Source: Myxococcales bacterium
GTDB taxonomy: Bacteria; Myxococcota; Myxococcia; Myxococcales; Myxococcaceae
Length of the DNA: 64,000 nucleotides
Direction: 5' to 3'
NCBI GenBank assembly: GCA_016191815.1
Contig: JACPVI010000045.1
Span: forward strand, 1-64,000
A program made the translations under genes and the position numbers. Below the pieces are notes generated by a model that worked only from the letters and a program-made list of their open reading frames with translations, did no database searches and had not been told where the DNA came from. Positions 22,097-25,972 of this stretch are shown here, piece by piece. Each line of letters opens with the position of its first letter. Position 1 is the first letter of the stretch.

Positions 22097-22603
22097 TCAG
22101 GGGAGGGCCGGCTCGGGACATTCCGCGGAGCAGGGCGCCCCCTCGGCGGGCGAAGAATCTGGCTCGCGCACCGCCGCCGGCGGCTCCTCCGGGGGCGCAG
22201 CCATCGCCACCTCGCCAAGCAGCACCGCGGGGCTCGCCTCGACCACGGCCGACTCCGGCGGGCCCGCCACGAGCGGGCTCGGCTCCGGAGCGCTCGCTTC
22301 GAGTGCGGTGGGTCCGGCCGCAGTGAGCTCGGCATCTTGCCGCTTCGGCTTGGGCACCCCGGCGCCCGAGCGGCAGGTCCGGCACCACGGCTGGTTGCGG
22401 ATGGCCCCGTCGGCCATCTTCCTCAGGCCGAATTGCGAGAGGGGCCTTATCTGCCGGCACTTGAGGCACATCAGGGTGATCAGCACCTCGTGGCCTTCGT
22501 GATCGTAGACAGCCGACTTTCGCCTCTTGCGCGGCTGACCCGGCTCCCGCTGCTTCCTCGGCTTCTCCGCCGGAGGCAGCATCGGAGTCACCTTGTAGAG
22601 CAT
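22097..22603 (-). CDS. Small zinc-ribbon-like protein with disordered C-terminus
   Basis: 168 residues. ATG 22603 has a near-perfect GGAGGAGGAAC site, so it is preferred over the upstream Met at 22711. A basic Lys/Arg/Pro N-terminus is followed by two CxxC pairs: 'MCLKCRQIRPLSQFG' and, about 25 residues later, 'WCRTCRS'. This is a plausible single zinc site. The last 90 residues are Ala/Pro/Glu-rich and probably unstructured. No function is recognised. The knuckle with 'QFGLRKMADG' between resembles small proteins with HNH-like zinc knuckles, but no catalytic HNH residues are seen. Confidence 0.65.
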   Translation of the reverse strand: MLYKVTPMLPPAEKPRKQREPGQPRKRRKSAVYDHEGHEVLITLMCLKCRQIRPLSQFGLRKMADGAIRNQPWCRTCRSGAGVPKPKRQDAELTAAGPTALEASAPEPSPLVAGPPESAVVEASPAVLLGEVAMAAPPEEPPAAVREPDSSPAEGAPCSAECPEPALP

Positions 22604-22903
22604 GTTCCTCCTCCGCTCGACGGCGCAGCGAAGGGCAAACTCCCCCACCCCGCTTTTGCGGAACTGCGCCGTTCGAGCCGAACAGGTTAGCGGAGGGGTC
22701 TGACATCGCACGCCGCGAACGCCCGAGAAATCGGCTCGGCCGGCGGGTTTCCGCTTCTATTGCGGGCGGTTGCGCGGATGCCGAGGGGGCCGCAGGTCGG
22801 AGGATCATTCCGGGAGGACGCGCCCGGGGGCCGGCTCACGATCGCCGTGCCGCCCGACCATCGACTCGCGCTCGAGTTGCCAAGACATGAGCGAAGCGCT
22901 GGT
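22604..22903. other. Intergenic region with no recognised feature
   Basis: 300 bp between the zinc-ribbon gene start and the stop of the repeat protein. It contains the ribosome site of the former. I see no tRNA, strong hairpin or credible ORF. Confidence 0.5.
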
Positions 22904-25900
22904 TCAGCGGACGTAGAGCTGGAAGTCGGAGAAGCCGAACGACTCGTCGGTGGCGCCCTGATCGAGCGACGAGCAGACGGCGATCAGCGCGGACCCGGCG
23001 CTGTGGGGCAGCTCGACCTCGACGTCGTAGCCGAGGCCGTCTGGGTACCCGGCGCCGCAGAGGTTCGGAGCGGGCCCCGAGCAACAGTTGGTCCTCGCGA
23101 GGCTCCACCGGGTGGTCCCGTCGACCTGCAGATATCCCTGCTCCCCGTCCCAGCTATCGATGAAGTGGTACTTGAGCCGAACCCGCAGCGAGCGGTGCGC
23201 CGACAGGCCGGAGAAGGTCTTGCTGATGCAACCGCCGGCGCGGACGTTGTACCCGCCCAGCATCCCGTATTGCCCGCAGCCGCTGGTGGTGTTGTCGCTC
23301 CAGCCCGAGGCGCCGTTCACGTAATTCTCTTGCTGGGCCAACGTCCAGATCGCCGCCGACTGCACGGTGCCATCCGGGAACATCACCCCGCCGGTGGTCG
23401 ATTGGATGATCCCTCCGACCGCGAGGCGCTGGGCGTTGGGGGCGGTGCCGATGCCGACGTTCCCCGAGAAGCTCACCGCCCCGGCGTTGTTCACCGCGAG
23501 TGGCGTCGTCCAGGTCACCGGCGAGCCGGCGCTGCCGCTGGTCGCGCCCAGGAGGAGATCGAAGGTCCCATCTCCCAGGTACAACCTCGCCGCGCCCCTC
23601 CCGGTCTGGGTGTAGTTGTAGCCGCTCCCGGCCGTGTTGATCGCGGCCCCGGCGGCCACGTTCATCAGCCCCTGTCCCTGGGCGACGTCGACGGTGTCGG
23701 CGCCGCCGATGGTGAGCACCGCGGGGGTCAACGCGTTCGAATAGCTGGTGGTGCTGGTCACCGCGAGGGAGCCGTCGATTTGCCCCGACCCGGAGATGCG
23801 GTAGCTCGCGGACTGGGCGGAGGCGGTCAGGTTCTGGACGTAGTTGTTGCTGCCGCCCAGAGGAGCGCGGGCGTCTGAGAGGCGCGGATCATTGCCCTGA
23901 GCTGCGGTGCCGGCGGTGGTGCCGTAGAGGACGCCGACGGTCGGGTTGGTGGCTGTGCCGCCCACGGTGGCGCCGGTGCCGGCGCTGACGCTGGAGACCT
24001 TGTTGTTGAACGTGGTCCAGTCGGCGGAGGCGAGGTAGCCGTCGGCAGTGCCCGAGGAGCGGGGAAGCGAGAGGGGCGAGCCGGCGGTGCCGGTGCCCGC
24101 GAGCGGGGCGTTGGAGACGACCGTGGTGAGCTTGTTATTGAAGGTGCTCCAGTCGGCCGCGGTGAGGTAGCCGCTGGAGGCGGAGCCGGCCTGCGGAATC
24201 GAGATGGGGCTCGAGCCCGAGCCGTTCCCGGTGATCGGCGACGAGGTGGCTACCACCGAGCCGCTGCAGACGGCGTTTCCTGACGGGTCCACTCCGAAGA
24301 GCTGCTCGCCCACCGGGCACAGCGCCGGTGCGGTGGCGCCGGTGGCGGGCTTGAGCGCGTTCTGCTTGGAGTTGAAGGTGCTCCAGTCGGCGGCGGTGAG
24401 GTGGCCGCCGGCGGCACTGGAGGCGGGAGGAATGGAGAGCGGGGCCAGGGCTGTCCCGCTCCCGGTGAGAGGCGAGGCGGCGCTGACCACGCCGAGCTTG
24501 CCGTTGAAGGAGTTCCAGTCGCCGGCCGAGAGGTAGCCGCTCGCCGAGGAGCCAGCTTGCGGGATGGAGAGGGGGTTCGCGGCCGAGCCGTTGCCCGCGA
24601 GGGGAGAAGACGCCGTCACGGACGGCCCGCAGGCCCAAGCGGTGCCGGTCCAGCGGAGAACCTGTTCCGCGGCGCAGCCGGCGGAGGAGATGGAGAAGGC
24701 GCCGCCGGCGAGCGTCAGCCCGGCGCCTGCGGTGTAGGTGGTGTCGATGTCCGGTCCGCAGGCCCATGAGGCGCCGTTCCACTTCTGCACCTGGCCCGCG
24801 CTGCACCCGGTGGAGTCGAGCGAGAAGGCACCGGCGTAGAGGGAGAGGCCGGCGCCTGCGGTGTAGGTGGTGTCCTGGTCGGTCGCGCAAGCCCAGGCAG
24901 CTCCGTTCCAGTTCAGCACCTGGCCGGCGGAGCAACCGGCGGAGCCGATGCTGAAGGTGTTGCCGGAGAGGGCCAGCCCGTCGCCCGCCTGGTAGCTGGC
25001 AGCCGGCGCGCAGGCCCAGGCGGTGCCGTTCCAAGTCAGCCGCTGCCCGGCGGTGCAGCCTTGGGCGTCGATGCTGAACGCGCCCGCGCTCAGCGCAAGG
25101 CCGGCGCCGGCAGAGTAGGTGGTGTCGCTGTCCTGCGCGCAGGCCCAGGAAGTGCCGTTCCACTTCTGCACCTGCCCCGCGCTGCACCCGGTGGAGTCGA
25201 GCGAGAAGGCGCCGCCGGAGAGCGAGAGGCCGCTGCCCGCGGTGTAGCTGTTGTTCAGGTCCTGCGCGCAGGCCCAGGCGGTGCCGTTCCAGGCCAGCAC
25301 CTGGGCGGCGGCACAACCGGTGGAGTCGATGCTGAAGATGTTGCCGGCGAGCACCAGCCCGCCACCGGCCTGGTAGCTGACGCCGGAAGCGCAGGCCCAT
25401 CCCGTCCCGTTCCAGGTGAGCGCCTGTCCCGAGTTGCAGCCTTGAGAGTCGACCGAGAAGGTGCTTCCCGAGAGGGTGAGGCCCGCTCCTGCCGCGTACG
25501 CCGCCGAGCCAACCAGCGCTCCTTGGGAGTCGATGACGGTGTTGCCTCCCACCTTGATGCTGGTGGCGTCCACCGTCCCGCCGGAGAGGTTGCGCGCGTC
25601 GTTGGCCATCATCGCATAGGGCACGGAGCTGACCCGCTGGCGCGGAGTCAGCTTCTCCCCCGCCACCGTCACCTCGAGGTATCGCTCTGCGCCGGTGAAG
25701 ACGCCGGAGGGAATGCCCGAGGCCGTCCCGTCTCCCAGGTGGGTGGCGTAGAAGCCGTCGGTGAGCCCCAGGGTTTGCTCCTCGCCGAAAAGGAGGTTCC
25801 CCGCGGTGGCGTCGTCATAGATGTCGAACTTGAACTTCAGGGTGCCGCCGGCCGGAGTCCCGTCCGACTTGAGCAGCCGCCCCTGGTACGCCACCTTCGA

Positions 25901-25972
25901 GGGAACCTGGGCAAGCGCCGCGGAAGAAAAAAAGCAAAGCGCGAGCAATCCGAAAGAAGTGACTGGCCTCAT
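22904..25972 (-). CDS. Secreted tail-fibre-like repeat protein with C-terminal lectin-like domain
   Basis: 1022 residues with a signal peptide ending 'SSAALAQ'. Residues 25-130 form a domain common at the start of secreted fibre proteins ('VAYQGRLLKSDGTP...'). Residues 159-451 carry seven 41-43-residue repeats, each with 'C-x10-12-WNGxxWAC' and 'YxAGxGLxLSG'. About 456-620 carry four repeats ending 'GYLxxADWxTFNxK', as in phage and bacterial fibre proteins. A 'GIGTxPxxxLxVGG...PDGTVQSA' element (about 865-895) precedes a roughly 120-residue C-terminal beta-rich domain with 'DSWDGEQGYLQVDG' and 'SSLDQGATDESFGFSDFQLY'. It is probably an extracellular or surface appendage that binds a ligand at its tip. 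Confidence 0.8.
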   Translation of the reverse strand: MRPVTSFGLLALCFFSSAALAQVPSKVAYQGRLLKSDGTPAGGTLKFKFDIYDDATAGNLLFGEEQTLGLTDGFYATHLGDGTASGIPSGVFTGAERYLEVTVAGEKLTPRQRVSSVPYAMMANDARNLSGGTVDATSIKVGGNTVIDSQGALVGSAAYAAGAGLTLSGSTFSVDSQGCNSGQALTWNGTGWACASGVSYQAGGGLVLAGNIFSIDSTGCAAAQVLAWNGTAWACAQDLNNSYTAGSGLSLSGGAFSLDSTGCSAGQVQKWNGTSWACAQDSDTTYSAGAGLALSAGAFSIDAQGCTAGQRLTWNGTAWACAPAASYQAGDGLALSGNTFSIGSAGCSAGQVLNWNGAAWACATDQDTTYTAGAGLSLYAGAFSLDSTGCSAGQVQKWNGASWACGPDIDTTYTAGAGLTLAGGAFSISSAGCAAEQVLRWTGTAWACGPSVTASSPLAGNGSAANPLSIPQAGSSASGYLSAGDWNSFNGKLGVVSAASPLTGSGTALAPLSIPPASSAAGGHLTAADWSTFNSKQNALKPATGATAPALCPVGEQLFGVDPSGNAVCSGSVVATSSPITGNGSGSSPISIPQAGSASSGYLTAADWSTFNNKLTTVVSNAPLAGTGTAGSPLSLPRSSGTADGYLASADWTTFNNKVSSVSAGTGATVGGTATNPTVGVLYGTTAGTAAQGNDPRLSDARAPLGGSNNYVQNLTASAQSASYRISGSGQIDGSLAVTSTTSYSNALTPAVLTIGGADTVDVAQGQGLMNVAAGAAINTAGSGYNYTQTGRGAARLYLGDGTFDLLLGATSGSAGSPVTWTTPLAVNNAGAVSFSGNVGIGTAPNAQRLAVGGIIQSTTGGVMFPDGTVQSAAIWTLAQQENYVNGASGWSDNTTSGCGQYGMLGGYNVRAGGCISKTFSGLSAHRSLRVRLKYHFIDSWDGEQGYLQVDGTTRWSLARTNCCSGPAPNLCGAGYPDGLGYDVEVELPHSAGSALIAVCSSLDQGATDESFGFSDFQLYVR
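24620..25498. repeat. Seven tandem 123-129-bp coding repeats
   Basis: Within the fibre-like gene. Cys markers fall near residues 179, 220, 263, 306, 347, 390 and 433. The third and sixth units are almost the same (both read CSAGQVQKWNG), suggesting block duplication of a three-unit array. Confidence 0.8.

Follow-up and report, generated by a model that had tools for sequence, protein, structure and literature searches.

Mosaic adhesive trimers (MATs) are chimeric fibres described as a prey-recognition repertoire of Bdellovibrio; strain HD100 encodes 21 of them, 13 of which end in an S74 domain and 8 of which do not, and their tips include TNF-like, C-type-lectin and new β-sandwich types (PMC10769870). 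In the case of Bd2133, the construct deposited as PDB 8ond starts at residue 662 and the tip extends from W913 to K1031 (PMC10769870). The main text of that paper, whose supplementary tables list other bacteria, contains neither 'Myxococc' nor 'eukaryot', and the literature using the term 'mosaic adhesive trimer' is, judged by title, all on Bdellovibrio. The stretch of 64,000 nucleotides analysed here (the window) comes from a myxobacterium and encodes a chimeric fibre that resembles MATs; the domain at the tip of this fibre is unnamed in the libraries searched. If this reading is correct, MAT-type chimeric fibres reach the Myxococcota, for whose contact-dependent predation we know of no comparable recognition repertoire; the tip family would moreover represent a small domain of 148 residues for which a ligand can be screened, and it would tie fibres of bacteria to virion proteins of cyanophages and to an algal giant virus by one fold and one set of motifs.

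The fibre is encoded by an uninterrupted frame in a genome of 6.77 Mb in 89 contigs, and its parts are arranged as follows.

22904..25972, minus strand: MAT-like fibre gene of 1022 residues, stop codon included (open frame and translation)
25910..25972, minus strand: leader-like N-terminus, residues 1-21, judged by eye to be a signal peptide
25715..25939, minus strand: head, residues 12-86, resembling Bdello_MAT_N (NF053851; NCBIfam match below the cut-off)
24626..25414, minus strand: shaft with seven WNGTxWACA-type repeats, from first to last repeat motif
23999..24520, minus strand: shaft with four DWxxFNxK repeats, from first to last
23348..23485, minus strand: neck, residues 830-875, matching Bd2133 (PDB 8ond) right ahead of the Bd2133 tip (E 2.2e-5)
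22907..23350, minus strand: tip domain, residues 875-1022 (148 residues; alignments and predicted structure)
23117..23158, minus strand: tip motif DSWDGEQGYLQVDG, residues 939-952
22913..22972, minus strand: tip motif SSLDQGATDESFGFSDFQLY, residues 1001-1020

The whole protein matches no Pfam family at E ≤1, the S74 peptidase/chaperone included. Its head matches Bdello_MAT_N (E 1.4e-11), covering about half of the model, with a score of 44.5 bits for the whole protein that lies below the curated cut-off of 60, as do the scores of all 60 relatives searched. The neck corresponds to chain positions 201-246 of 8ond and constitutes the only match of the fibre protein to a PDB sequence at E ≤10. Given that the construct starts at residue 662, position 246 is, by our own arithmetic, residue 907 of Bd2133; the Bd2133 tip then follows at W913 and the window tip at W876, so that the neck and its position agree while the tip differs. 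With Bd2133 and the other MATs of the NS74 group (PDB 8ond; PMC10769870), the fibre shares a length of about 1000 residues, a putatively related head placed after a leader-like stretch, a β-rich shaft, a neck matching in sequence and an independently folded end domain devoid of S74. It differs from the Bdellovibrio MATs by a head that scores below the cut-off, by a tip without a sequence match among the MAT tips of the PDB and by its myxobacterial host.

Related heads occur elsewhere in the family, the first 160 residues of the fibre matching 30 of 96 genomes at E ≤1e-4; the source genome itself (G000) harbors three heads, with 100, 85 and 58% identity. The second of these copies (L123; G000:C38:51703-52176; 85% identity) is followed by a few repeats and then by an unrelated end, and it looks truncated because its frame is 333 residues long and runs out in unrelated sequence inside the repeat region. 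Two further loci, L131 and L124, carry related heads with other ends. In L131 (G021:C76), from the same family, a MAT-like head (46% identity) precedes a fibrinogen-type segment, after which comes a different tip, and this protein is an example of tip exchange within the family. The MAT-type reading is based on the Bdello_MAT_N-like head and on a Bd2133 neck that runs up to the residue before the tip linker; it is weakened by a head that stays below the cut-off in the window and in all 60 relatives searched, and by the fact that many fibres of bacteria and phages have FPDGxVQ necks and repeats of this kind.

The two tip motifs lie in the C-terminal part of the fibre, where the earlier note had seen them, and the C-terminal domain it had proposed is recovered as well, as one compact unit with a start at about residue 875, slightly ahead of the suggested residue 890. 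Both D-S-W-D-x-E and E-S-x-G are fully conserved across a 4-row alignment. When 28 rows are aligned, G32, S66, D68 and E136 (domain numbering) do not vary, and W17, D65, W67, E70, S137 and D141 hardly do, which argues that the motifs are no chance occurrence. Cys 25 and Cys 98 of the domain hardly vary among the 13 closest rows. A search with the single sequence matches a genome of the same family (G108; E 1.3e-18, domain residues 2-148). By sequence, the tip family is absent from Pfam, NCBIfam and the PDB: the tip finds nothing convincing in Pfam, NCBIfam or PHROGs (best PHROG E 0.45), no match among PDB sequences, MAT tips included, and none by tblastn among phages and plasmids; the matches of three profiles (A2, A8 and A6) to PDB sequences were confined to the motif (best E 0.022) and were set aside as chance. 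Literature returned for the motif strings mentions, judged by title, unrelated subjects and no related work.

The domain is predicted as a single chain with high confidence (mean pLDDT 92.2, pTM 0.88) and consists entirely of strands. Its best PDB match in Foldseek is a porphyran-binding carbohydrate-binding module (CBM; E 4.6e-6), while VIA-align places LAST-MAM in the top row (8a28; Z 12.1, rmsd 2.8, 125 aligned), and also returns CBM22 (2w5f; Z 11.9, rmsd 2.6, 123 aligned), CBM61 (2xom; Z 11.0, rmsd 2.6, 122 aligned), the porphyran CBM (8xmz; Z 10.9, rmsd 2.5, 117 aligned), reelin repeats and Cry-protein domains. As modelled, the tip adopts a β-jelly-roll of the CBM/MAM kind, like CBM22, CBM61, CBM16, the porphyran CBM, meprin MAM and LAST-MAM in its fold (Z 10-12, 117-134 aligned residues). 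At the level of sequence, in contrast, its identity to these rows is just 6-16%, and the curated CBM and MAM models of Pfam find neither the tip (E ≤1) nor any of the 28 alignment members (E ≤0.1). None of the best 50 rows of either PDB fold search (Foldseek, VIA-align) is a Bdellovibrio tip structure. The lectin-like character claimed in the earlier note is thus borne out as a discrete domain with a predicted carbohydrate-binding-like fold; since MAM, reelin and Cry domains match too, this fold is compatible with sugar binding but does not prove a lectin.

How far the domain extends beyond this fibre depends on which of its forms is considered. When 195 genomes of the phylum are searched with the single tip sequence, 20 match at E ≤0.1, of which only L003, L004/L022 (one protein in two copies) and L020 were kept, the discarded rows being mostly short, at E >0.001 or interrupted by internal stops; a second weak place in the source genome (L023; E 0.0158, two stops) was likewise discarded, as a chance match. 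A separate search of 60 relatives with the single sequence finds the close form in one genome only, the source genome itself. The 28-row profile reaches 28 of the 195 genomes at E ≤1e-4, and three of these (G000, G108 and G171) contain the close form; below E 1e-40, only G000 and G108 are found within the family, both of which contribute rows to the profile. The remaining matches inspected are mostly a divergent form, marked by WDGN, in the same family. Profile-profile comparison connects the WDGN form to the close group at E 1.3e-15, and alphaproteobacterial, planctomycete and verrucomicrobial rows to it at E 4.2e-31.

Across GTDB species genomes, one scan with the 4-row alignment finds 35 loci encoding tip relatives. 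By their record titles, these belong mainly to aquatic Myxococcota bins and Rhodobacteraceae, distributed over Myxococcales, other deltaproteobacterial bins, Rhodobacteraceae and other Rhodobacterales, with single loci in Planctomycetia, Akkermansiaceae, Omnitrophota, Spirochaetaceae and a bin labelled Klebsiella pneumoniae. The domain of the Spirochaetaceae bin is identical to that of a Myxococcales bin, and this identity, together with the Klebsiella pneumoniae label, makes the bin titles untrustworthy. A tree of 41 rows (leaving out, as in the counts, L029, identical in its domain sequence to L028, L003 where L038 from the same place is used, and L043, which lies on the contig of L004) has 13 of its 38 inner branches starred. 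The tree supports no sister for the window tip, which sits on an end branch of 0.96, with L030 as its nearest neighbour by path; taxa are mixed, with five changes for Pseudomonadota and three for Myxococcota when the labels are taken from the submitters' titles.

The domain occurs on many unrelated, extracellular-looking scaffolds. In all 15 loci L028-L042, it ends at most one residue from the stop, so that it forms the distal end of a long protein, and in 14 of them a fibrinogen-type segment (YCDxxxxGGGW / CxMx..GGW) directly precedes it. The NCBIfam model NF040941 names 7 of the 10 proteins scanned, with L030 just under the cut-off and L131 lacking this tip; it is found in six of the seven segment-bearing tip proteins scanned (L030, below the cut-off, L031, L035, L038, L046 and L049), and L039, which is devoid of the segment, is unmatched. 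By comparison with these NF040941 proteins, the window fibre lacks the segment: it has no NF040941 match at E ≤1, and its tip directly follows the neck. Pfam further identifies EGF modules in L031 and L036, TNFR_c6 in L038, MopE repeats in L035, VWD in L149, and RTX with Hint in L044, L045 and L048, the domain being internal in the RTX proteins. Weak MAT-like heads stand together with this tip in L030 and L046.

Some viral proteins resemble the tip by fold, others by sequence. Against the predicted viral structures of BFVD, ranks 1-11 reach TM-scores of 0.75-0.89 with 19-30% identity to the tip model, followed by 0.59 at rank 12 and at most 0.57 among the later matches listed. The sole named row of ranks 1-11, Q4A2U1, is a putative membrane protein from an algal virus, Emiliania huxleyi virus 86. 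It aligns over 150 columns (TM-score 0.87, rmsd 2.0, 27% identity); this match covers part of a far longer viral protein, with 1436 residues in that fragment, as against 148 in the tip. Homology of the tip to these viral proteins would rest on the modelled fold and the reported identity. Q4A2U1 has no mention in the literature searched, and the accessible text of two papers on EhV virions (PMC2322966, PMC10222054) does not identify this protein. By sequence, within the bacterial and viral collections searched, all tip relatives lie in bacterial genomes or prokaryotic-virus-like contigs. Six queries for giant-virus loci in IMG/VR returned 6, 0, 1, 0, 0 and 1 relatives, and those inspected in full look like cyanophage structural genes or a large LamG-like protein, none of them giant-virus-like; of L164, the frame and the stretch ahead of the domain were inspected. 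Six of the seven loci from the virus collection measure 199-218 residues from stop to stop (L065 measures 417), and in six of seven the domain ends at most two residues from the stop. Their nearest named relative is from Cyanophage P-RSM6, annotated as 'virion structural protein' in one record and as 'hypothetical protein' in the other; PHROG 15727, to which this group belongs, is a virion structural protein, and profile-profile comparison relates the cyanophage-like rows to the bacterial tip group (probability 98.0, E 1.9e-13). These cyanophage-like relatives are mostly small separate proteins, whereas the window tip is fused to a fibre.

The place of the fibre gene was compared by seeking two neighbouring proteins in 30 genomes each. 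Both are present in six (G000, G002, G005, G009, G037 and G044) and lie near each other on one contig in four. In G002, G005 and G009, some 450-800 bases containing just a small conserved gene separate the 5'-nucleotidase from the CoA transferase; in the window, this distance is about 4.0 kb and the fibre gene is located between the 5'-nucleotidase and the small gene. Of the four genomes compared, only the source genome carries the fibre gene here and the other three lack it, which suggests a lineage-specific insertion or losses elsewhere. The small gene (22097-22711, minus strand), kept between fibre gene and CoA transferase in the three relatives as well, encodes a protein whose cysteines follow a CxxC-type pattern that looks, by eye, like a zinc ribbon. 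In composition, the tip (GC 0.673, GC3 0.919) is like the rest of the gene (0.704 and 0.898), and nothing in it points to a recent foreign origin.

Taken together, the protein is probably a secreted MAT-type fibre with an exchangeable tip, most likely binding a glycan on another cell or surface. The head would hold the fibre at the cell surface, the repeats would build a shaft closed by the GIG...FPDGxVQ neck, and the jelly-roll of the CBM/MAM kind would act as an exchangeable end piece binding a glycan of a prey bacterium, an alga, a protist or a polysaccharide matrix. Besides head, neck, conserved motifs and predicted fold, this reading draws on the combination of head and other tip in L131, on the terminal position of the domain in the 15 loci and on the missing gene in the three relatives. 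The tip could instead be a structural cap that nucleates or locks the trimer without a ligand of its own, like the S74 chaperone of other MATs, and it does sit where S74 or other end domains sit in Bdellovibrio MATs (PMC10769870). This is unlikely, as the domain also stands at the end of EGF, MopE and TNFR-like proteins and in the interior of RTX proteins, where a trimer cap would be needless. To our knowledge, none of these proteins is known as a trimeric fibre. Little probability is likewise given to a fibre that serves the bacterium's own life, in cell-cell cohesion or in the matrix of a fruiting body or biofilm, rather than contact with other organisms: while a fold like that of a CBM would be well suited to a matrix polysaccharide and the host is a myxobacterium, the close tip form is rare in the family, and a gene occupying its place in one genome out of four is more in keeping with a target that varies than with a social trait common to all.

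The protist question raised by the earlier note receives a divided answer. The motifs, which we take to resemble ciliate proteins, and the close BFVD fold matches with their row from an algal virus would speak for a tip acquired from a protist or a protist virus. Nevertheless, in the prokaryotic and viral collections searched, the best sequence relatives are bacterial (36-43% identity) and the composition of the tip is that of its host, and such an origin is very improbable. The note was therefore half right: the domain is broadly bacterial, a lectin-like tip is its best reading, and a link to a protist virus exists in the viral fold matches, whereas the cross-domain transfer that it considered is, as a recent event in this bacterium, supported neither by the sequence relatives in the collections searched, all bacterial or prokaryotic-virus-like, nor by the composition. 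Beyond the preferred reading of an exchangeable, glycan-binding tip, one recognition domain might be common to myxobacterial fibres, cyanophage virion proteins and algal giant-virus membrane proteins and bind related surface glycans in all three, the fibre then holding algae, cyanobacteria or protists; we regard this as a long shot.

Other members of the tip family occur in settings of their own. The WDGN form closes proteins with a VWD domain and β-propeller repeats in L145, L149, L160 and similar loci of the same bacterial family (by Pfam in L149, by eye in the others), and it precedes an NHL/SGL-type β-propeller in the lipoprotein-like proteins L137, L140 and L146 (by Pfam in L137 only). 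In Nioella and other Rhodobacteraceae (L054, L056, L058, L060 and L062), the domain is carried by proteins of about 235 residues, the three of which that were scanned match no Pfam family; their N-terminus, which looks by eye like that of a Flp-type pilin, makes them possible adhesive minor pilins.
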